This document shows positions 14,600 to 26,050 of a stretch of 64,000 nucleotides of DNA, piece by piece. This DNA comes from a virus. The first letter of the stretch is position 1. Every line of letters begins with the position of its first letter. Location of the stretch: IMG/VR virus record IMGVR_UViG_3300023237_000006, positions 1 through 64,000 of that record; one strand, given 5' to 3'. A program made the position numbers and the translations under genes. The notes below the pieces were generated by a model. That model worked only from the letters and a program-made list of their open reading frames with translations, searched no databases and was not told the origin of the DNA.

Positions 14600-16141
14600 A
14601 TGATAGGATATAGAAATATTGCGTACATACCTAGAACGAAGGAGGTAAAAGTTTGGACCTGGGATTCTGATGGTAATAGAATATCATACACTAAGTCGTA
14701 CACCCCTTATGTGTATATTGAAGATAAAAATGGGACAGATACTTCAATATTTGGTACTAAGCTCAAGCGTCGAGATTTTCAAACGCAGTACGCTCGAACT
14801 AGGTTTGTTCGAGATACTGGCATAAAGAGACTTTTTGAAAATCTACCTACTCATCAGCAATTTCTGTTAGATAAATACTGGGAGTTTAATGAGGGTGAGG
14901 AGTTTACATCCAAACCGCTCAAAGTACAATTTATAGATATTGAGGCTGTTGCGAGGGATGAATTTCCGAATGCTGAGGAGGCCAAGTACCCAATCAACGT
15001 TATAACTATTTATGATAATTTATTAAAGCATACATTTGTGTGGGGAGTTGGCGCATTTGACTCCTCTAAGTATCCTCCCGAAGATTTGACTTATTATAAT
15101 TGCCGGAATGAATTAGAATTGTTAGATAAAATGCTAACATTTTTTGAGAGTGACTATCCAGATGTAATCTCGGGATGGAACTCTGCTGGATTTGACATGC
15201 CATATATTATTAATAGAATAAACAATATTATGGGGGAGGATGAAATAAAGAGATTATCGCCCATAGGTAATGTTTATAATAGATCAATCAGAGGTATGTA
15301 TGGTAGAAATGATTTGAGATGGTATATCGATGGTGTATCTTGCTTAGATTATCTTGATGTATATAAACGATTTCAATTAAAAAATAGAGACTCATATAAG
15401 TTAGATAATATTGCAAATATAGAATTAGATTTAAGAAAAATTGATTACGGTAATATGCATATTGCAGATTTATGCGTTCAGGATTGGCAGACCTTTGTAG
15501 AGTATAATATTCATGATGTATTTTTACTTCAGAGATTAGATGAGGAATTGAGATATATGGAACTATTACGAATGTTAGCATATGTAGGTCTAACTACATT
15601 AGAGGCAGCTATGGGGGCAGTAGCTGTCATTAATGGAGCTGCAGCAATTAGAGCTAGACATAGAGATCAAAAAATTGCCACATTTATAAGGCATGAAGAT
15701 ACAGGGAAAAATCCAGGAGCGTATGTGAGCGAGCCTCAGGGAGGTTTTCAGCAATATGTAGTATCCTTTGACGCTAATTCCCTATACCCTAATATAATGA
15801 TATCCTTAAATATGTCCCCCGAGACAAAGGTCGGTAAAATTATATCTAAGAACGATAAGACAATTACAGTCAGGTATGTAAACGGTGAGACATTCGAATT
15901 ACCTTTAGAACAATTCGGTAGATTAGTACATAAGGAAAAAATAGCTATATCTAAAGCTGGCATTTTATTCTCTCAAAAGAAAAAAGGCATAATGCCCGAG
16001 ATGGTAGATTTTTATTATAATAAGCGCGTTGAAATTAAAAAATCATTGCAGGCTATAAAAATAGAGGCAAATGAGGTAGACAAGGCTATCAAAAAATTAG
16101 AGAAACTTAATAAGAAAAATGCCTTAGGTGTCTTAAGTTGA
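14600..16141 (+). CDS. 43A: gp43 DNA polymerase, N-terminal half (exonuclease and motif A)
   Basis: 513 residues of a family B DNA polymerase. Proofreading motifs: 'FIDIEAVA' (Exo I, around residue 113), 'NSAGFDMPYI' (Exo II) and 'YNIHDVFLL' (Exo III). Polymerase motif A is 'FDANSLYPNIM' (around residue 390). The protein then ends in a charged helix ('VDKAIKKLEKLNKK') and a TGA, before motifs B and C. These are in the next frame-shifted gene, 16189-17325. The two halves sum to 891 residues, close to the ~898 of T4 gp43, so no domain seems lost. Presumably the halves assemble into one enzyme. Confidence 0.9.
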   Translation: MIGYRNIAYIPRTKEVKVWTWDSDGNRISYTKSYTPYVYIEDKNGTDTSIFGTKLKRRDFQTQYARTRFVRDTGIKRLFENLPTHQQFLLDKYWEFNEGEEFTSKPLKVQFIDIEAVARDEFPNAEEAKYPINVITIYDNLLKHTFVWGVGAFDSSKYPPEDLTYYNCRNELELLDKMLTFFESDYPDVISGWNSAGFDMPYIINRINNIMGEDEIKRLSPIGNVYNRSIRGMYGRNDLRWYIDGVSCLDYLDVYKRFQLKNRDSYKLDNIANIELDLRKIDYGNMHIADLCVQDWQTFVEYNIHDVFLLQRLDEELRYMELLRMLAYVGLTTLEAAMGAVAVINGAAAIRARHRDQKIATFIRHEDTGKNPGAYVSEPQGGFQQYVVSFDANSLYPNIMISLNMSPETKVGKIISKNDKTITVRYVNGETFELPLEQFGRLVHKEKIAISKAGILFSQKKKGIMPEMVDFYYNKRVEIKKSLQAIKIEANEVDKAIKKLEKLNKKNALGVLS

Positions 16142-16188: not shown

Positions 16189-17325
16189 ATGCATATTGAA
16201 GATAAGATAGTAGCGCTAAAGCAAAAGCGTCATGAGCTCCGGATGGAGGAAAATCGATTAGATACAAAACAACTTACTATAAAAGTGCTTATAAATAGCG
16301 CCTATGGATATTTTGGTAATAAACACTCACCTATCGGTGATGATGATATAGCAAGTAGCATAACGCTATCTGGTCAGGCAGTGATTAAGCAGTCTAATAA
16401 GTTTGCTGCTGAGTTTTTACAAAAAGAAGCAGGAGTATCTAATGTTTATATGTCTAAAAACAGCCCTATTTTATACAACGATACAGACTCCTGCTATATA
16501 TCATTAAAGTCATTAGTAGATTCAGGTAAAATCCCGAATTTTGTAGATAGTAATAATAAATTAACGGCGGAGGTTTATGATTACTGTGAAAAATTAACGG
16601 TATATTTAAATGAAAAGATAATAGAATGGGCTAAGTCAGCCTTTAACTCTGAAGACTGTCGATTATTATTTAAGAGAGAAGTTATTAGTGATGTAAGTCT
16701 TTTTTTAGAGAAAAAAAGATACGCTATGCATATCTTAGATGATGAAGGTATTACTATGGACAAGTTTAAATATACTGGGGTAGAAGTAGTTAGAACAACT
16801 ATGCCAGATGCAGTAAAGCCATATGTAAAGGATATAATTGAAACTATGCTGATAGGACGGAAGCAGAAGGATACAGATGAGGCTGTTAAAAAGGCATATG
16901 ATGTGTTTATATCATTACCTGTAGAGGATACTGCATTTGTTGTTGGTTTATCTTCATTCGATAAATATCTTAAAGATTGTCATAATTTTAATACATGTAA
17001 GGGGATGCCAATTCATGCAAAAGCTGGATATTTTTATAATTGTGTATTGAAAGATAATAATTTAGATAAAATATATGAGCCCGCTGCTCAAGGTGATAAG
17101 TTAAGATGGATGTATGTTCAAAAGGGTAATAAATACGGAGTATCAGCTATAGGGTTTAAAGATAAATTTCCAGTAGAGTTAGAGGGTATGTTTAAAATTG
17201 ACTATGAGAAGATGTTTAGTAAAATTATATTCAACGTAGTAGAGAGATTTTATAAGCGCGTTAATTGGGTAGCTAGAAAACCTAATGACCAAATAAAGAC
17301 CGATTTGTTTGATTTATTTGCTTGA
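16189..17325 (+). CDS. 43B: gp43 DNA polymerase, C-terminal half (motifs B and C, thumb)
   Basis: 378 residues starting with a charged helix, then motif B 'KVLINSAYGYFGN' (about residues 35-47) and motif C 'YNDTDSCYI' (about residue 100), followed by the thumb. The C-terminus 'KTDLFDLFA' resembles the clamp-binding peptide at the end of T4 gp43. It is in a different frame from the first half, separated by 47 nt with a stop in its own frame at 16168, so no single base change would rejoin them. A purine-rich 'AGAGGGG' about 12 nt upstream is one of the few possible ribosome-binding sequences in the window. Confidence 0.9.
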   Translation: MHIEDKIVALKQKRHELRMEENRLDTKQLTIKVLINSAYGYFGNKHSPIGDDDIASSITLSGQAVIKQSNKFAAEFLQKEAGVSNVYMSKNSPILYNDTDSCYISLKSLVDSGKIPNFVDSNNKLTAEVYDYCEKLTVYLNEKIIEWAKSAFNSEDCRLLFKREVISDVSLFLEKKRYAMHILDDEGITMDKFKYTGVEVVRTTMPDAVKPYVKDIIETMLIGRKQKDTDEAVKKAYDVFISLPVEDTAFVVGLSSFDKYLKDCHNFNTCKGMPIHAKAGYFYNCVLKDNNLDKIYEPAAQGDKLRWMYVQKGNKYGVSAIGFKDKFPVELEGMFKIDYEKMFSKIIFNVVERFYKRVNWVARKPNDQIKTDLFDLFA

Positions 17326-17745: not shown

Positions 17746-18897
17746 ATGGAAAAAGATATAAAAAGTGTATTGGATGAAATTGATAAGATTAATCCATTTG
17801 CGTCATACCTAGATGACTCTTCGCTGAGTTTTGTAGATGAGTGGATTGATACCGGCTCTTATGTATTAAATGCAATAATATCTGGAAGTACCTCTGGAGG
17901 CATACCTAAGGGACGAGTAACAATGCTCGCTGGTGAGAGTATGACTGGAAAGTCATTATTTGTTTGCAAGATATTAGCCTCTGCACAAAAGCAGGGACTT
18001 ATACCGGTAATATTTGATACTGAAAATGCGATAGATCCGGCAGGAGCCGCAAGATTAGGATTAGATATTAAGAATGTAAAATATGTACCTACAACAAGTA
18101 TTGAGCAGACTAGAAATTCAATTTACAATTTTCTTGAGAAGGTTAGAGAGAACGGGCTGGAAGGTAAATTTATTATTGCCATAGATTCCCTCGGTAATCT
18201 TCAATCTGAGTTAGAGCTTAAGAGAATGACTAATGATAATACCTCATCTGATATGGGGTCACGGGCAAGGGCTATTAAATCTCTAATGCAAACATGTACG
18301 AACTTAGGAAGTATAACTAATACAACAGTTTTAATTACTAATCATGTATATGATGATCCTTCAGCTATGTATCCGTCTATTGAAAAAAATATGTCGGGTG
18401 GAAAATCAGTTAAATATCTACCATCTGTTACAGTTCAGTTAACTAGAAAACCTATGAAGGATGATGGTGGTAAAATCTCTGATGCAAAGTTAGCTGTTAG
18501 TCAGAAAAAATACCCAGGTATTATAATCAGAGCTCTCACATTAAAGAATAGATTTATTAAACAATACCTGGAGGGAGAGATATATTTATCATTTTCTTCA
18601 GGCCTTGATAGATATTATGGTTTACTAGATATAGCTACCGGGTTAGGTGCGTTGATACAGACCGGCTCTACATACACCCTCGAGGGTGGTAAAAAGATTG
18701 GATACTATAAAGCATTCAGATCAAATACAGAGTTGTGGGAAAATACAATTATACCTATAATAGAACAACGTATGAAAGCTGAATGGAACTATGCTAATTT
18801 GGAAAATAATGATATACCTCCTGAGGTAGATCCAGATGAATTAGCTATTTTAGATAGTGCCGATGTAACCGATACAGAAGAGATAGCAAAAACATAA
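17746..18897 (+). CDS. uvsX: UvsX recombinase, RecA-like
   Basis: 383 residues (T4 about 391). RecA-fold motifs: Walker A 'AGESMTGKSLF' (about residues 62-72), 'VIFDTENAIDP', Walker B 'IIAIDSLGNL', and 'TVLITNHVYDD'. UvsX forms the strand-exchange filament on gp32-covered ssDNA with UvsY as mediator. The C-terminus is acidic, as in T4. It is the second gene of a short operon with the 127-residue protein. Confidence 0.93.
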   Translation: MEKDIKSVLDEIDKINPFASYLDDSSLSFVDEWIDTGSYVLNAIISGSTSGGIPKGRVTMLAGESMTGKSLFVCKILASAQKQGLIPVIFDTENAIDPAGAARLGLDIKNVKYVPTTSIEQTRNSIYNFLEKVRENGLEGKFIIAIDSLGNLQSELELKRMTNDNTSSDMGSRARAIKSLMQTCTNLGSITNTTVLITNHVYDDPSAMYPSIEKNMSGGKSVKYLPSVTVQLTRKPMKDDGGKISDAKLAVSQKKYPGIIIRALTLKNRFIKQYLEGEIYLSFSSGLDRYYGLLDIATGLGALIQTGSTYTLEGGKKIGYYKAFRSNTELWENTIIPIIEQRMKAEWNYANLENNDIPPEVDPDELAILDSADVTDTEEIAKT

Positions 18898-18931: not shown

Positions 18932-18939
18932 TATAAATA
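18932..18939 (+). promoter_or_regulatory. Late promoter box, exact TATAAATA
   Basis: TATAAATA ending 5 nt before the ATG at 18945. It would place lipoprotein, protease and queC under late control inside the replication region. Confidence 0.78.
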
Positions 18940-18944
18940 CTAAT

Positions 18945-19265
18945 ATGAGATATTTAATATTTTGTATTAGTATTTGTCTTTTCCAGAGTTGTGGTGTAAT
19001 TAATACCAATTCAACTCCAGAACCACCAGTACAAACTACAGTCGAGCCTAGCAATAATTTTTTAATTGCAAAATATATTACTGAGATGACGTATATTACA
19101 AAAGATAAAACAAAAATAAAACTATTTGCTGATGCATATAAAGACCATACATTATCAGCATACCCATCTTTATGGAAACTTGAGGCTTGGTCAAAAGAAA
19201 AAGATCGAGATATTTTAATTAAAGCGATGGACATATTAGTAAATCTTAAATTTAGAGGGCAATGA
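18945..19265 (+). CDS. Small predicted lipoprotein
   Basis: 106 residues. A hydrophobic stretch (residues 3-13) ends in F-Q-S-C16-G, a lipoprotein-type signal with Cys16 as the acylated residue; the -3 and -2 positions are not the canonical ones. A Pro/Thr/Ser linker follows ('STPEPPVQTTVEPS'), then a helical C-terminal domain of ~70 residues. The protein would sit in the outer or inner membrane facing the periplasm. It overlaps the protease gene by 4 nt and has its own late promoter, which suggests a joint late role such as lysis or superinfection exclusion (inference). Confidence 0.7.
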   Translation: MRYLIFCISICLFQSCGVINTNSTPEPPVQTTVEPSNNFLIAKYITEMTYITKDKTKIKLFADAYKDHTLSAYPSLWKLEAWSKEKDRDILIKAMDILVNLKFRGQ

Positions 19266-20026
19266 ATTTTAAAAGAAAATTAAGAAAAAAATACTCATTT
19301 GTAATGCCCTCATTACCTGATGAGAGAGATAGAATATATGTTGCAGGTAGTACTACCCCAATAGTTGAATCTTCTCTGAGGGAATATAGGGGCGGTATAT
19401 TAAATCAGGGAAGTTGGGGATCGTGTACCGGTCATGGCACAGCTGGAATGTTGCATTCTACCTATAAAAGAATTACAGGCATTAATATTGATTTTAACCC
19501 CTTCTGGATATGGTATTGGGCGCGTCGATCAAACGGTTGGGAGAAAAATAATACAGGAGCATACCCTAGGGATGTGTTTAAAAATCTTATAAGTAGGGGT
19601 GTTTGTGAAAACCCAACCTGGTCACCTACTAATTATTCTGAAGCGCCACCGAAATTGCCAGACAGTGATCTTATTAAATTTAAATCATATCATAGAATAC
19701 ATATTGATAAAGATAATTTCGATAATACAAAAAACGACTTTGCATATTGTATAGCTGTTGAGCAGCTACCTATTGGTATAACAATGGCAGTTCATGCATC
19801 ATTTGAGACTTATACATCAGAAACCGGAAGCTTATTAACCCCCAATATAAATGACCCGATTGTAGGTTATCATTGGGTGTATGTTGATGGGGTTGATGAG
19901 GAGGGTATTACGGTAGTCAATTCCTGGGGGGAAAATTGGGGAGATTCAGGAACGTTTCAGATGCCTTGGGATTATGTTAGAAAATATGTTGTCGAAGCCT
20001 GGAGTTTAGACCCATCGCTGCCATAA
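19262..20026 (+). CDS. Papain-like (C1A) cysteine protease
   Basis: 254 residues. Papain-fold active site in order: Gln49 and Cys55 in 'NQGSWGSCTGHG', His204 in 'YHWVYVDG', Asn220 in 'VVNSWGENWGD'. The catalytic residues are intact and the length is that of a mature peptidase with a short N-terminal arm and no inhibitory propeptide. No signal peptide is visible, so export would need another route. C1A proteases are infrequent in phages; possible targets are host surface proteins, peptidoglycan-linked peptides or virion proteins. It is coupled to the lipoprotein gene by ATGA overlap. Confidence 0.85.
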   Translation: MNFKRKLRKKYSFVMPSLPDERDRIYVAGSTTPIVESSLREYRGGILNQGSWGSCTGHGTAGMLHSTYKRITGINIDFNPFWIWYWARRSNGWEKNNTGAYPRDVFKNLISRGVCENPTWSPTNYSEAPPKLPDSDLIKFKSYHRIHIDKDNFDNTKNDFAYCIAVEQLPIGITMAVHASFETYTSETGSLLTPNINDPIVGYHWVYVDGVDEEGITVVNSWGENWGDSGTFQMPWDYVRKYVVEAWSLDPSLP

Positions 20027-20038
20027 TAATATAAAAAA

Positions 20039-20803
20039 ATGAGTAAAATAAAAAAATTAGTACTACCTATGTCTGGAGGGATGGATAGTACAGTATTGTT
20101 ACACAAGGCCTTATTAGAGTTCGATGAAATATATTGTATTACTTTTGATTACGGGCAGCGACATAGTAAAGAAATTACCTGCGCCGAAACGCAAATAGGG
20201 TATGCTAGAAAGAAACATAAGAGGGTATATCACCAGGTTTTAGATATAAGGTTCCTTAAAGAGCTTGCGCCTACTAGTTCGCTTACAAATGATAGTATAG
20301 ATACTCCTAATATAAGAGATATTCAAGGCGAAGCGCAGCCTAAAACGTATGTACCAAATAGAAATATGTTATTTCTTAGTATAGCTGCCGCTAGGGCTGA
20401 AGCTGTAGGAGCTACCACAATATGGCATGGCGCAGCTCAGGCTGATTCGTTAGCTGGCTACTGGGACGGGTCTGTTGAGTTCTTAGATAGTATAAATAAT
20501 ATATTAAATCTAAACAGAGCTTCGCCAGTCGTTGTAGAAGCCCCATTAATTGAGATGTCTAAGGCAGATATTGTAAGAGAAGGTATAAATCATAAAGTCA
20601 AATTCAGCGAGACATGGACCTGCTATGATGGGTCAAATTTACCTGATTATACTACCGCTAGCAGCTCTTTAAGATTGCAAGGGTTTATAGATGCTGGATT
20701 CGCTGACCCTTTAATATATAAGGATCAGCGAAAGTTAACAGACAAATATAACGAATTAGGTGTAGGCTTAATAGACTACGAGACATATATTTTTAAGTTG
20801 TAG
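20039..20803 (+). CDS. queC: QueC-like 7-cyano-7-deazaguanine synthase, zinc site altered
   Basis: 254 residues. The ATP-pyrophosphatase P-loop S12-G-G-M-D-S17 and the family motifs 'FDYGQRHSKE', 'TYVPNRNMLFLS' and 'IWHGAAQAD' are present. QueC turns 7-carboxy-7-deazaguanine into preQ0 with ATP and ammonia, and phages use preQ0-derived bases to modify DNA. The C-terminal zinc site (C-x7-CxxCxxC) is reduced to Cys195 alone: the other three positions are D203, T206 and S209. The reading frame around it is otherwise well aligned ('SETWTCYDG ... LQGFIDAGFADPL'). Activity may therefore differ from canonical QueC. Third gene of the late lipoprotein/protease operon. Confidence 0.85.
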   Translation: MSKIKKLVLPMSGGMDSTVLLHKALLEFDEIYCITFDYGQRHSKEITCAETQIGYARKKHKRVYHQVLDIRFLKELAPTSSLTNDSIDTPNIRDIQGEAQPKTYVPNRNMLFLSIAAARAEAVGATTIWHGAAQADSLAGYWDGSVEFLDSINNILNLNRASPVVVEAPLIEMSKADIVREGINHKVKFSETWTCYDGSNLPDYTTASSSLRLQGFIDAGFADPLIYKDQRKLTDKYNELGVGLIDYETYIFKL

Positions 20804-21452
20804 TTGGCTGTCTACCTGATGTAGGCATCCCACCTGACGCTGGAGGTGCATTATAAGCTGCTTTAGCAGCATCGCCTACACCACCGAAATATCCTTTATT
20901 TTGGGATGTTTCCATATTAGCTTTTGTTTGACTTTGTACATCTACTAAGCGATTAATAATATCACCTAAGCGTTGACTCATAACATCACCGCCGCTGCCT
21001 AAAGAGCCACCACTAAAAACATCGGGGTATTTCTCAATCGCGGAATTTATTAAATTAGCAAGCTCTTGCGCAGCAGCATTTGCTTTTATAATTACCTGTT
21101 GAGCACTCTGATCATCAGATCCAGACTGGTATATATTTTTTGCATTATCTCCGATCTGACCAGCTACTGCACTACCAACTGCGCCTGCAGTCCTAGCAGC
21201 TTGACCTGCAGCACCAGCAATGTTTGCACCAGCCTTTGAAGCGCCAGCTACTGCCCGCTGCCCCATAGACTTCAAGCCACCTAGTATCCCCTCTGAAACT
21301 AACTCTCTATGAATTTCTAATATTGCATTTGCCTCTTCAATTGTATTAATATTTTGAGAGTTCCTTATAAACGTATCAGCAGCAGATTCCAGCATCACCT
21401 GCTTTAGATTGAGAGACTTATAGCTTTCGTATATTAATTCTTTATCATTCAT
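20793..21452 (-). CDS. Late Ala/Gly-rich hypothetical protein
   Basis: 219 residues from the ATG at 21452. The start is chosen because a late box ACTAAATA ends 5 nt before it; the longer frame to 21488 overlaps the preceding gene. N-terminal helices are followed by an Ala/Gly-rich segment (about residues 80-110, 'AGANIAGAAGQAARTAGAVG') and a Gly/Ser/Pro/Thr-rich C-terminus. I-Y-E/S at residues 7-10 fits the prohead-protease pattern. A small-residue helix of this type could insert in membranes, as in ejected phage proteins. Converges on queC, overlapping its end by 11 nt. Confidence 0.65.
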   Translation of the reverse strand: MNDKELIYESYKSLNLKQVMLESAADTFIRNSQNINTIEEANAILEIHRELVSEGILGGLKSMGQRAVAGASKAGANIAGAAGQAARTAGAVGSAVAGQIGDNAKNIYQSGSDDQSAQQVIIKANAAAQELANLINSAIEKYPDVFSGGSLGSGGDVMSQRLGDIINRLVDVQSQTKANMETSQNKGYFGGVGDAAKAAYNAPPASGGMPTSGRQPTTT

Positions 21453-21457
21453 TATAT

Positions 21458-21465
21458 TATTTAGT
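21458..21465 (-). promoter_or_regulatory. Late promoter box, ACTAAATA
   Basis: Minus-strand ACTAAATA ending exactly 5 nt before the ATG at 21452; it lies just before the stop of the upstream gene (21473). Confidence 0.6.
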
Positions 21466-21472
21466 GTAAAAA

Positions 21473-23239
21473 TTACCTTTGACCCCACCTATTGTCATGT
21501 TTCATGTTATTTCTCATGCGATCTGAACGCTGTTTTAACATCCATCTATTTGCTTCTTGTGGAGACATTCTCGACTCTACAACAGTATCAATATCAGCTG
21601 ATTCTTCCTTATGCTTGTGGTCGCATTCACAATCTGGGTTAGGATCATCAATATCACATCCGCATTTAGTGCACAAATTTTTATTATGACTCTCACCATG
21701 TAGCATCTGCATGTCCTCATCCCCGCGACTATGGACTTCAGTAGAATGTTTCATTCCTGTATAATCTCTAATAGCATTTTTTATAGCTGTTTCTTTATCA
21801 GGATTTATATCCTGACTCACTGTATTAGCATCGCGATTATTAACTACTGCAACCCACTCAGTACCAGTAAATCTTTTATATACATTTATGAATACATTAT
21901 CATTACTAATTACAGCCTCCCAAGCTTCATCGCCCTCCGTGGAGGTATCCGTTGTTTCTTCTTGATCTTCATCCCTATAATCTATATGATTATTCCCCGG
22001 CATACCTGTACCATTACAGGATCTGCAATTATCAAATTCCATTTCTCCGTGATGTTTATAATTTTTATAGCCTTTACCTTCGCAATCTACACATGTGGCA
22101 TTAGATGTATCCTCCTCATCCTCCCAGTTATTCTCACCGTCTGGATCCATTGGATCATAATCATACTCACTATCTGGATCTTCTGATTCATCTGAATCGC
22201 CTTGATCTAAATCATCCCTATTTGTATTTTCCGAATCAGCTTCATTATCTCTAGTATCTTCTATATCTGCAAATTGCGCATCTCCAGAAGTCTCAGGATC
22301 AAACTCCATATCGTCTATATTACTAACCGGTATATCTTCAATTTCATCTTCCCCATCGCTTTCATCACTGGTAGGTTTATTATTCTTCTGGAGTTCATCA
22401 CCAAGTGACGATATAGCATTATCAATCTCTTTATCTGGTGGTAGTACTTCGACCATCGCTACACCAGATGAGCTAAATTGACCGAACAGCTCGTCTAAAT
22501 CTTCCTGCTCCATCGACGAAAATTGAACCTCAGCTGGATCCCCGATTGGTAGAAAGAAGTCAATAACAGCATTACCATTTCCCATTCTATCAATGCCTAT
22601 ATTGTCCTCTTCAACACCTATATTTTTAATAACCTCTATTAGTTTATCTTGCTTATCTAAATCTTTAACCTGTATAGATATTAGAGTCCTATCCCTAGAT
22701 GCTTCCATCGAGTCTAATACTGCATCTTCAATCGAATCAGCCACACTTGTATCTACTCCACTGACCTTAATTTGTTTCATCAGCGCTTTTTGCTGCTTAG
22801 CTAAGTCCCTTGCGGCAGCTTGAGCTTGGTATTGATCTTTTCTACCTGTACTATCCTTACCACCCCTACCGCGATTAACAGCAGACCTATTAATAAATTT
22901 TGTAAATTCTCCTTGATATTTATCAGATATTTGATCTCTCTTCGATATAATATCTTCTGAATGGTCATTTAATGCCTGCATTAGTAGCTCTCCACGAGCT
23001 TTAGAGTTATGCGTTCTCTCTATAGTAGTTGCAAGATCATCATCAAAAGATCCAACAACATTTAAGAGATGTGTGATAAATAGCATAGCGTCTCTAGTAG
23101 GTACAGACATTCCAGCTGTTCTTACATCCTTCTTTACTGATTGTAATTCCGGCACTTTCCCACCTATAGTATAATCTCTACCAACTCTACCCTTTTGCTC
23201 CACATATAGATTAAAAATATCATCTTGCCAGTTTATCAT
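21473..23239 (-). CDS. Large acidic late protein with DnaJ-type zinc motifs
   Basis: 588 residues, unrecognised overall. Residues ~1-190 are helical and mixed-charge. Residues ~290-380 are extremely rich in Asp/Glu/Ser. 'CVDCEGKGY' and 'CRSCNGTGM' (about residues 387-417) form a pair of CxxCxGxG units like the zinc domain of DnaJ, and 'CTKCGCDIDDPNPDCECDH' further on is a second Cys cluster. A late box ends 5 nt before its ATG. It may be a scaffold, internal head protein or assembly chaperone; all inference. A Gln/Arg-rich tail ends the protein. Confidence 0.6.
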   Translation of the reverse strand: MINWQDDIFNLYVEQKGRVGRDYTIGGKVPELQSVKKDVRTAGMSVPTRDAMLFITHLLNVVGSFDDDLATTIERTHNSKARGELLMQALNDHSEDIISKRDQISDKYQGEFTKFINRSAVNRGRGGKDSTGRKDQYQAQAAARDLAKQQKALMKQIKVSGVDTSVADSIEDAVLDSMEASRDRTLISIQVKDLDKQDKLIEVIKNIGVEEDNIGIDRMGNGNAVIDFFLPIGDPAEVQFSSMEQEDLDELFGQFSSSGVAMVEVLPPDKEIDNAISSLGDELQKNNKPTSDESDGEDEIEDIPVSNIDDMEFDPETSGDAQFADIEDTRDNEADSENTNRDDLDQGDSDESEDPDSEYDYDPMDPDGENNWEDEEDTSNATCVDCEGKGYKNYKHHGEMEFDNCRSCNGTGMPGNNHIDYRDEDQEETTDTSTEGDEAWEAVISNDNVFINVYKRFTGTEWVAVVNNRDANTVSQDINPDKETAIKNAIRDYTGMKHSTEVHSRGDEDMQMLHGESHNKNLCTKCGCDIDDPNPDCECDHKHKEESADIDTVVESRMSPQEANRWMLKQRSDRMRNNMKHDNRWGQR

Positions 23240-23244
23240 ATAGA

Positions 23245-23252
23245 TATTTATT
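23245..23252 (-). promoter_or_regulatory. Late promoter box, AATAAATA
   Basis: Minus-strand AATAAATA ending 5 nt before the ATG at 23239. Confidence 0.62.
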
Positions 23253-23303
23253 ACTCTGAGTGGATTTTTTAATACTATTGTATATAATTATGTTAATAAT
23301 AGT

Positions 23304-23311
23304 TATAAATA
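23304..23311 (+). promoter_or_regulatory. Late promoter box, exact TATAAATA
   Basis: TATAAATA ending 5 nt before the ATG at 23317, which supports that start and predicts late, leaderless expression of the amidotransferase. Confidence 0.78.
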
Positions 23312-23316
23312 AAGAT

Positions 23317-23985
23317 ATGTGCGCAATATACGGCTCTTTTAATAAATCAATGTTTGAAATATTGCACGAATGCAATTACTCTAGAGGGCCCTGGGCGGGT
23401 AGCTATCTAGGCGCAATATTAAACAATAAGCATATTTATAATATTGAAAAATGGCAGGGCGTTGGTAAGATTGATAAAATCCTCACGAACGTAGATTATG
23501 GAGTATATTTAGGTCACCTGCAAGCACCTACCGGAATTAATAGGACATGGGATGAGCAATCCACTCACCCCTTTACTGTTGGAGATTGGGTAGTGGCTCA
23601 TAACGGAGTAATAACTAACCATAAAAGTATAATAGAGGAATATAATAGCAGTAATACTGTAACAGTTGATTCTAAATTAATACCATTAATGGCTCAGAAG
23701 ATAGCTGCAAGAGACCATAGCATAACTGAAGTTAAATCGTTAGAACTTGCTCTATCTAAGTTAGAAGGTACATTTGCAATCTGGGCATTTAATAAAAAAT
23801 CAGGTGTAATTTATATTAGTCGACAAGGGTCAACATTATATACTGATAAATCTGGGAATTTTTCTTCAACAGACAGTAGAGGCAGCTGGGATGAACTCCC
23901 AGAAGGCAAGATATTTAAATTAAGTAACAAGGGACCAATATTAGTGGGGCAGTTTAAGCAAAATAGCCCCTACCTATTAATATAA
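23317..23985 (+). CDS. Stand-alone class II glutamine amidotransferase
   Basis: 222 residues from 'MCAIYGSF', with Cys2 as the Ntn nucleophile once Met1 is removed; this and the late box fix the start at 23317 rather than 23260. Family elements include 'GHLQAPTGI', 'AHNGVITNH' (oxyanion-hole Asn-Gly) and 'LEGTFAIWAF'. Such domains release ammonia from glutamine and normally are fused to a synthase (GlmS, AsnB, PurF), but no synthase domain follows. The natural partner nearby is the QueC-like ATP-pyrophosphatase at 20039, resembling the fused Gat-QueC used for archaeosine-type bases. The partnership is inference. Confidence 0.8.
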   Translation: MCAIYGSFNKSMFEILHECNYSRGPWAGSYLGAILNNKHIYNIEKWQGVGKIDKILTNVDYGVYLGHLQAPTGINRTWDEQSTHPFTVGDWVVAHNGVITNHKSIIEEYNSSNTVTVDSKLIPLMAQKIAARDHSITEVKSLELALSKLEGTFAIWAFNKKSGVIYISRQGSTLYTDKSGNFSSTDSRGSWDELPEGKIFKLSNKGPILVGQFKQNSPYLLI

Positions 23986-23989
23986 ATTT

Positions 23990-24679
23990 ATGAAGATACC
24001 AAAAGTAGTGTTTATTATCTGTACCAAAAATAATAAGAGTAACCCGACATTAATTGAAAGGAGTATTGAAGACCTGAATATAGAAAATTATGAAATTTAT
24101 AAAATACCACATAATACATCAGGTTTATCAACTCAGTATAATAAATTTATTGATACATCTCTAGATAAATATGAAGATGATACTGCATTTATATTTGTAC
24201 ATGATGATGTTTATCTTAACTGTAAGGATATACACTATAAGTTAGGCCTTTATTTTGCTAAATTTGATATAGTAGGTGTTGCTGGATCAGCTACTGCAGA
24301 GATTAAAGAGCCTGGACTATGGCATTTAATGGCTCCGAGAGAAAGCTTGTTAGGGTGTGTTGCTCATAGTTCAAACCCCAACCCTTATGAACATGAGCCT
24401 TATAATATGACTACTTTCGGAAATTTAAACCAAAGAGCAACACTAATAGATGGTGTATTTATTGCTGCTACTAAATCATCATTAAAACGAGTTAGATTTG
24501 ATGAATCCAATCCAGCTAAATTTCATTTTTACGATTTAGCATTTTGTTTGGATTGCAATAAAGCAGGTTTAAAGATAGGGGTATGTGATATACCAATAAT
24601 ACATAAATCTGCAGGCTTATCTAAAATTACTACTGAGTTTGAAAACGGTAAAAAATGGTTTTTGACTAAGTGGGGTTAA
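23990..24679 (+). CDS. GT-A family glycosyltransferase
   Basis: 229 residues. 'VVFIICTKNN' begins the Rossmann-like fold, 'AFIFVHDDVYL' (around residue 68) holds the D-D-V metal/sugar-nucleotide motif, and 'FDIVGVAGSATAEI' and 'FHFYDLAFCLDCNKAGLKIG' resemble the glycosyltransferase-2-like family that ends with a conserved D. Acceptor unknown. It begins 4 nt after the amidotransferase and is likely co-transcribed, so it may act on the same modified product or on a virion glycan. Confidence 0.75.
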   Translation: MKIPKVVFIICTKNNKSNPTLIERSIEDLNIENYEIYKIPHNTSGLSTQYNKFIDTSLDKYEDDTAFIFVHDDVYLNCKDIHYKLGLYFAKFDIVGVAGSATAEIKEPGLWHLMAPRESLLGCVAHSSNPNPYEHEPYNMTTFGNLNQRATLIDGVFIAATKSSLKRVRFDESNPAKFHFYDLAFCLDCNKAGLKIGVCDIPIIHKSAGLSKITTEFENGKKWFLTKWG

Positions 24680-24718: not shown

Positions 24719-26050
24719 ATGAAGATTGATCATAATTTTATGGAGAGAGTTATTCTCTTCAGAGCTCTAACTAACGAGGGTTATTTGGCTGCAGTCATAG
24801 ACTTTATAACTCCAGATATTTTTGAAGATCGGCATATTAGTGACATTATAGGGGTTATATCTGATTTTCATGATAGGAATAATACTTGCCCTAGTCTAAC
24901 CGAAGTAAAAACTCTACTTACTACCGAAGAGCTTATTAAATCCTTTAAATCTGCTATAGAGCAAGTTAAGGATGTAGATGTAAAATTCAATAATGAAGAG
25001 CTCATAAGAAATACAGAACAATTTATTAAAGAACGTAGAGTTTATAATACCCTACTTGAAACTGCAAAAACTATAAGTGATGGTGATGCAGATACATCAC
25101 TCATACTTACAAAATTTGAAGACGCGTGTAATATAAATCTTATTACTGATCACGGCATTGAAGTATTTGGTGATATTGATAAAATTGCAGAAGATCTTAC
25201 AAAGAAAGACCCAGTAATATCTTCTGGGTGGGATTGGATGGATGAGATGCTAGGGGGAGGTTTTCAAAAAGTGGGTCGTGCTATATATGTTTTTGCAGGT
25301 AGACCTAATGTAGGTAAGAGCATATTCTTAGGCAACATAGCTAATAATATATCTACTAAAAATAAAAACGTTTTAGTTGTTACGTTAGAAATGTCGGAAA
25401 TGGTATATGCAAAAAGAATGTGTTCTAATATTACAGCAATACCTATATCAGAACTACCAAGTTCGACGACCGCAATGCAAAGAGAGATAAATAAAATAAA
25501 TGAGAGTCATCCAGATCGTCGAATATTTATAAAAGAATTTCCCCCATCAACTGTAACAACAAAACAGTTATCTGCATTTGTTAAAAAAATGGAATCTACT
25601 GGCATCAACTTTGATGCTATTGTAGTTGACTATCTAAATTTACTCCACTCTACTAACGGCTCTAATTCATATGAGAGAGTTAAAGATATAATTGAACAGC
25701 TTCGAGCGATGAGTTATATTTACGAATGCCCTATTATTACAGCTACACAATTAAACCGAGGGGGGATGGATGAGGAAAAACCAGGTATGAATAGTTTATC
25801 TGAATCAGTAGGGGTTGCAGCCACTTCAGATTTTATAGCTAGCTTATGGCAGGATGAAGAAGATGTTGAATATGAAACTATACATGTCGGGGTAATGAAA
25901 AACCGATTTGGTAGAGCAATCGGATCGTCTCGATTTAAAATTGACTACACTACACTAACTCTTAGTGAGTTAGTCGACTCAGATTTGCTACCTATTGATG
26001 GCGAAGAAAATGATATATATAATAGCTTTAAAATGTTAGCAGATAGTTGA
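24719..26050 (+). CDS. 41: gp41 replicative DNA helicase, DnaB-like
   Basis: 443 residues (T4 475). N-terminal helical domain, then a RecA-like motor with Walker A 'AGRPNVGKSIF' (about residues 196-206), 'VVTLEMSEM', Walker B 'IVVDYLNLL', and 'ITATQLNRGG'. It is the hexameric 5'-3' helicase of the replisome, loaded by gp59 and paired with primase gp61 (33233-34255, opposite strand). Strong host-type promoter directly upstream. Confidence 0.92.
   Translation: MKIDHNFMERVILFRALTNEGYLAAVIDFITPDIFEDRHISDIIGVISDFHDRNNTCPSLTEVKTLLTTEELIKSFKSAIEQVKDVDVKFNNEELIRNTEQFIKERRVYNTLLETAKTISDGDADTSLILTKFEDACNINLITDHGIEVFGDIDKIAEDLTKKDPVISSGWDWMDEMLGGGFQKVGRAIYVFAGRPNVGKSIFLGNIANNISTKNKNVLVVTLEMSEMVYAKRMCSNITAIPISELPSSTTAMQREINKINESHPDRRIFIKEFPPSTVTTKQLSAFVKKMESTGINFDAIVVDYLNLLHSTNGSNSYERVKDIIEQLRAMSYIYECPIITATQLNRGGMDEEKPGMNSLSESVGVAATSDFIASLWQDEEDVEYETIHVGVMKNRFGRAIGSSRFKIDYTTLTLSELVDSDLLPIDGEENDIYNSFKMLADS

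Follow-up and report, generated by a model that had tools for sequence, protein, structure and literature searches.

A virus-specific QueC clade without zinc cysteines and its stand-alone glutamine amidotransferase: a probable two-subunit preQ0 synthase for phage DNA modification

The DNA considered here (the window) is the first 64,000 bases of a linear, 111,925-base virus record in IMG/VR, also labelled G000, and no nucleotide match to it was found in phages. The record is very probably incomplete, since it contains T4-type replication genes and relatives sharing its gene order extend to 185–230 kb. In the window, a queC-like gene and a gene for a separate glutamine amidotransferase (Gat) stand between a recombinase gene and a helicase gene, and the following features were recognized:

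17746–18897, plus strand: UvsX-type recombinase, the left synteny anchor (same order in relatives G001, G006, G014, G017, G018 and G019)
20039–20803, plus strand: queC-like gene for a QueC-family ATP-pyrophosphatase without zinc cysteines (PF06508, TIGR00364, AlphaFold model)
20072–20089, plus strand: SGGMDS ATP-binding loop, residues 12–17 of QueC (S-G-G-x-D-S invariant in 64 zinc-less sequences)
20621–20665, plus strand: zinc site remodelled to C195, D203, T206 and S209, the last three replacing cysteines (alignment with viral relatives)
23317–23985, plus strand: stand-alone class II glutamine amidotransferase, Gat (PF13522, Cys2, linkage to queC)
23990–24679, plus strand: glycosyltransferase-like gene directly after Gat (PF13712 match, conserved position)
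24719–26050, plus strand: gp41-type helicase, the right synteny anchor (conserved gene order)

The end of queC and Gat are separated by a gap of 2.5 kb containing two minus-strand genes. Directly before queC lies a gene for a papain-family (C1) cysteine peptidase (19262–20026), and the gp43-type DNA polymerase consists of two ORFs in different frames (14600–16141 and 16189–17325), corresponding to one 868-aa ORF in relatives such as G001; the cause may be a frameshift, an error of sequencing or a genuine split. The preliminary description of this locus placed both queC and Gat under exact TATAAATA late promoters, a claim that does not stand. The 1 kb preceding queC has no same-strand copy of the motif; the nearest one upstream is at 18932–18939, and another lies inside the gene at 20491. 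A copy near Gat (23304–23311) stops 5 bp short of the ATG. The window shows no enrichment of the motif, with 34 copies observed against 27 ± 5.5 expected, a count reached by 18 of 100 shuffles.

The 254-aa product of the queC-like gene was assigned to its family by Pfam PF06508 (E = 4e-52) and passed the cut-off of the NCBIfam equivalog TIGR00364 (166.9 bits; cut-off 150.3). Conservation was assessed across 64 zinc-less sequences, all distinct virus proteins and at least 42% identical in every pair, in which the SGGxDS, YxQxHxxE and VPxRN motifs are invariant except that a single Ala replaces the Pro of VPxRN. Mutagenesis of E. coli QueC identified Y35, R99, Y131 and Y189 as essential (PMC13329287); their counterparts in the window protein, Y38, R108, Y141 and Y196, are each invariant in the same 64 proteins. 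The YPDC motif reads YWDG, with its essential Tyr and the Asp retained, Pro changed to Trp and Cys to Gly. An AlphaFold model of the protein (pLDDT 87) matches B. subtilis QueC (3bl5) with a Z score of 19.4 over 184 residues and matches Cap9 with a Z score of 19.4 as well. The QueC fold is kept and Cap9 is equally close; therefore, it is the conserved catalytic residues, and not the fold, that favour QueC chemistry.

Since only C195 remains of the C(x)8CxxCxxC zinc motif of canonical QueC, the window protein is best regarded as a QueC-family variant. Residues 203, 206 and 209 align with the three zinc cysteines retained by nearer viral relatives, in agreement with the preliminary description, which had reported an SGGMDS loop combined with D203, T206 and S209 at the expected CxxCxxC. 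A first scan of viral contigs yielded 21 QueC relatives, both zinc-less and zinc-bearing, and a profile scan yielded at least 588; among the 83 best-matching viral sequences examined, a sample that leans towards the query, 71 were zinc-less. Across the 64 zinc-less sequences the former ligand positions form a conserved C-D-[T/S]-S signature (C195 in 64, D203 in 62, Thr or Ser at 206 in 63 and S209 in 64). In a maximum-likelihood tree, the zinc-less proteins form one clade (support 99/96) nested within zinc-bearing viral QueC (98/95), and a search of 84,980 bacterial and archaeal species genomes with the same QueC profile returned no relative. According to both tree and alignment, the QueC of Rhizobium phage RHEph04 lost its cysteines independently of this clade. 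The C-terminal zinc site would thus have been replaced once in the clade, with the polar C-D-[T/S]-S residues presumably holding the same fold metal-free. The absence of zinc is a clade-wide conserved substitution and does not hint at an unknown substrate, all of the residues proven essential in the QueC mutagenesis cited above being retained.

The listed ORF for Gat opens at a GTG at 23260, and translation from the ATG at 23317 places Cys at the second residue. The protein matches PF13522 at 33.8 bits (cut-off 27), bearing out the earlier prediction of a free-standing Ntn amidotransferase with Cys2 about 2.5 kb from queC. The residues of the class II (Ntn) type, namely an N-terminal Cys, HNG and an active-site Asp, are all present, and M1-C2, HNG (N96-G97) and D118 are invariant in a nine-member Gat alignment that includes KVP40 and pf16. 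An Arg of the GlmS R73 type plays a role in the glutamine-binding loop of class II amidotransferases. Throughout the split-Gat alignment, this loop reads HxQAPT, with Gln and not Arg, and the fused form of phage 9g has Arg at the corresponding substrate-loop position. Because Gln replaces the loop Arg, Gat is classed here as a GATase_6 family protein with predicted glutaminase activity. A search of viral contigs with Gat alone found nothing.

Each of the 72 loci whose 3′ flank extends at least 4 kb past queC (64 zinc-less and 8 zinc-bearing) has a Gat gene downstream of queC on the same strand, at spacings ranging from overlap to about 3 kb, and this linkage rules out a chance pairing. The order gp43–x–uvsX–queC–gat–glycosyltransferase–gp41–DHH gene is kept across strongly diverged phages. 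Both the linkage and the known fused form suggest that Gat acts as the partner of QueC. No description was found in the literature consulted of a virus-only QueC clade in which the metal site is gone, the catalytic signature is kept and a separate glutaminase is constant; phage QueC, Gat-QueC fusions and deazaguanine modification of DNA are already known. The glycosyltransferase-like gene is directly 3′ of Gat in 65 of 75 loci by scripted count, and 4 of the 10 exceptions merely overlap Gat by more than 50 bases. One could read the conserved queC–gat–glycosyltransferase order within the replication module as the source of a glycosylated 7-deazaguanine hypermodification made via a dedicated metal-free QueC-Gat pair, a speculation that we rate as a long shot. 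To our knowledge, no glycosylated 7-deazaguanine is known as a DNA hypermodification.

The surroundings of the pair are best seen in 11 large relatives with zinc-less QueC (records of 82–230 kb), which were searched with HMMs. All 11 encode queD and queE, with queD about 19–40 kb upstream of queC, and 7 encode folE. QueF (PF14819 and PF14489), with the motif ESKSIKLYFNSF, is present in seven, and the same seven encode a protein of phrog_19058, a PHROG family annotated as of unknown function; in the four largest records (185–230 kb), queD, queE, QueF and the phrog_19058 protein are all found. An AlphaFold model of the latter (pLDDT 90) has as its best PDB match in Foldseek the tRNA-guanine transglycosylase 2pot (E = 1.4e-10) and also matches the DNA preQ0 insertase DpdA (7ui4, E = 1e-5). 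Three aspartates, D56, D87 and D210, are invariant in 26 phrog_19058 sequences and were equated with the catalytic Asp residues of TGT by motif order only. With this TGT-like fold and these conserved aspartates, which are the marks of the TGT/DpdA superfamily, phrog_19058 is likely a transglycosylase-fold protein of the QueF operon. Of 80 viral loci (L214–L293, including L215:3001–3801), 74 have the phrog_19058 gene adjoining QueF and an AAA_28 P-loop gene. In one of the 80 (L216), a zinc-less QueC ends about 1.2 kb before the phrog_19058/AAA_28/QueF operon, and the gene beside queC in a Campylobacter phage is also a member of the family. Proteins of the phrog_19058 type may correspond to the DpdA3 of Cui and colleagues (2023). 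Thus, in the large relatives, the QueC-Gat pair very probably belongs to a pathway that modifies phage DNA.

Several further genes were observed in relatives. In G014, a formyltransferase-like gene (L048:10842–11363) neighbours the transglycosylase-like gene, and QueF is overlapped by an IMPDH/GMP reductase gene (L048:1953–2978); further tailoring of the base and a lowering of the G pool are possible roles. In G018, a phosphoribosyltransferase gene (L053:14843–15310) lies between queE and the AAA_28 kinase-like gene, and similar phosphoribosyltransferases occur in G022, G024, G025, G030 and G036. The gene after folE in G001 (L044:3257–3805) weakly resembles T4 endonuclease V (PF03013, below cut-off), and in both G024 and G026 the gene after folE begins similarly, that of G026 having no Pfam match. 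The phosphoribosyltransferase, AAA_28 kinase-like and GMP reductase-like genes of some relatives would suit a route in which the modified base enters through the nucleotide pool; base exchange is the simpler reading because a transglycosylase-fold protein is present.

In the window record itself, neither the window nor the rest of the 111,925 bases contains folE, queD, queE, QueF, a TGT-type gene or a phrog_19058-type gene, so that the absence of folE, queD, queE and DpdA-type genes first reported for the window extends to the whole of this incomplete record. This absence is uninformative because queD lies about 19–40 kb upstream of queC in relatives, the record holds 20.0 kb upstream of queC, and its two closest relatives, L081 (71% identity) and L083 (62%), are fragments that reach no further than 1.7 kb upstream of queC and show no pathway genes. 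The notion that folE, queD and queE just lie beyond the left end is weakened by the left-end synteny with relatives, which breaks at about 2.2–2.4 kb; the relative G026 would have folE about 1.5 kb beyond this break. The missing genes may lie outside the record, or may have been relocated or lost, so the window phage would either carry the remaining pathway genes or borrow them, and supply of CDG (7-carboxy-7-deazaguanine) by the host is possible. Elsewhere in the record are a second PP-loop ATPase (PF01171, TilS-like; record positions 102940–103632, L025:2940–3632), possibly a tRNA- or nucleotide-modifying enzyme, and a DUF1501 protein (E = 1e-104; record positions 91653–92876, L024:11653–12876), which is unusual for a phage genome.

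Taken together, the products of the queC and Gat genes probably form a virus-specific, two-subunit preQ0 synthase that depends on glutamine and feeds 7-deazaguanine modification of DNA. Counting against this reading are the lack of the other pathway genes in the record, the Gln in the Gat substrate loop and the Gly at the Cys of YPDC. In the proposed mechanism, Gat would hydrolyse glutamine at its N-terminal Cys2 and supply ammonia, with which the QueC subunit, using the usual QueC active site, would convert CDG via the amide to preQ0 (7-cyano-7-deazaguanine) at the expense of ATP. The transglycosylase-fold protein would then insert preQ0, or in phages with QueF its reduction product preQ1, into phage DNA, and the inserted base would shield the DNA from host nucleases. 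QueF acts on the nitrile, and its presence in the relatives implies a pathway through preQ0. Because a QueF encoded alongside would require this nitrile, a role of zinc-less QueC as an ADG synthase stopping at the amide, conceivable in that some phages carry dADG, was dropped as the main reading.

The proposal of DNA modification by a split Gat and QueC is thus well supported as regards the unit itself, by the 72/72 linkage and the complete pathways of large relatives; its other half, an archaeosine-type amidine as the product, has become less likely. A split archaeosine synthase, in which QueC and Gat carry preQ0 on to the amidine G+ and so yield dG+ in DNA, would fit the match of both window proteins to PHROG 10428, which holds fused Gat-QueC. 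In the phage study PMC6884629, the Gat-QueC of 9g together with DpdA produces dG+ in E. coli even when the host queC is mutated, and a trace of dG+ is reported for nt-1, which has the split pair and, in that cluster, no QueF. According to the same study, however, the main modification of nt-1 is dPreQ0, roughly five-fold over dG+, with lesser dADG and dG+, and the authors credit its dG+ to an ArcS homologue (PMC6884629). QueF in the large relatives likewise points away from archaeosine and to preQ1, and so does Vibrio phage 6E351A: 6E35-type Vibrio phages have the pair, close 6E35 relatives of 6E351A carry Gat, and the product reported for 6E351A, with QueF in its cluster, is dPreQ1 at 15% of dG and not dG+ (PMC12028318). 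We therefore consider dPreQ0 or dPreQ1 the more likely DNA product and archaeosine formation by the split pair unlikely.

Less probable again is a destination in tRNA, with phage-made preQ0 boosting host queuosine and the DNA left unmodified. PreQ0 is an intermediate common to the tRNA and DNA pathways, and no transglycosylase was found in the window record; on the other side, 7 of the 11 large relatives have the transglycosylase-fold protein in the QueF operon, and related split pairs adjoin DpdA2 in phages with modified DNA. It is very unlikely that the QueC-like protein acts on some other substrate, such as a protein N-terminus in the manner of Cap9/QatC, or in an AsnB-like amidation. The zinc loss and the Cys-to-Gly change in YPDC do depart from canonical QueC, and there are precedents for the repurposing of proteins from this family (PMC13329287, PMC13279940). 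On the other side, the residues found essential for CDG conversion (PMC13329287) are all invariant, a Pfam scan of gene products around queC and elsewhere in the record found neither QatC-type neighbours (qatA/qatD) nor a CD-NTase, and the CDG-making queD and queE accompany zinc-less QueC in all 11 large relatives. Finally, a decaying or inactive gene, with zinc loss as degeneration, would agree with the remaining pathway genes not being seen in the record, but is extremely improbable, since the ORF is intact, every catalytic residue is retained and the replacement residues are conserved in 64 divergent sequences.

These findings suggest that QueC can dispense with its zinc site, which is treated as a hallmark of the family, and still keep an invariant catalytic signature. 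They also point to a two-gene, probably glutamine-linked QueC in many T4-like environmental viruses and in the model phages KVP40 and nt-1, provide a likely identity for the widespread unannotated family phrog_19058, and lead to direct predictions for DNA chemistry and enzyme activity.

Compared with canonical QueC (E. coli and B. subtilis 3BL5), the window clade shares the fold, the SGGxDS, YxQxHxxE and VPxRN motifs, the Tyr and Asp of YPDC, a Lys, and the C-Y of the C-terminal motif. It differs in having Asp, Thr/Ser and Ser for three of the four zinc cysteines, Gly for the Cys of YPDC and a constant Gat neighbour, and in its absence, by profile, from the prokaryote genomes searched. With the fused Gat-QueC of phage 9g and archaea it shares the pairing of a class II glutaminase with QueC as well as the PHROG family noted above; unlike the fusion, the window has two genes 2.5 kb apart, and QueF rather than archaeosine formation is indicated in the large relatives. 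The QueC of RHEph04 (L076:1480–2316) also lacks the zinc cysteines and sits in a queE-queC-queD-folE cluster, whereas it belongs to a separate lineage, has lost all four cysteines and has no adjoining Gat.

The closest parallel in gene content is offered by KVP40, nt-1 and pf16, T4-like or T4-related phages with a split queC and gat surrounded by the preQ0 pathway. The split pair is found in KVP40 (KVP40.0124/0125), nt-1, 1.081.O, 2.275.O and pf16, and the two genes overlap by one base in KVP40, nt-1 and 1.081.O. The clusters of these Vibrio phages and pf16 contain folE, DpdA2 or another transglycosylase-like gene and often QueF. Class II glutaminase genes directly after queC were observed in KVP40 (KVP40.0125, L037:15714–16322), nt-1 (L068:7001–7609) and pf16 (L067:15001–15639), where they are annotated as ‘hypothetical protein’ or ‘nucleophile aminohydrolase’; the consulted parts of the nt-1 modification study mention no glutaminase (PMC6884629). 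The Gat proteins of KVP40, nt-1 and pf16 are homologous to the window Gat, with 29–30% identity. Unlike the zinc-less clade, these phages have a QueC that keeps its zinc cysteines, and their transglycosylase is DpdA2, which was not found in the zinc-less clade, where the phrog_19058 protein is present instead.
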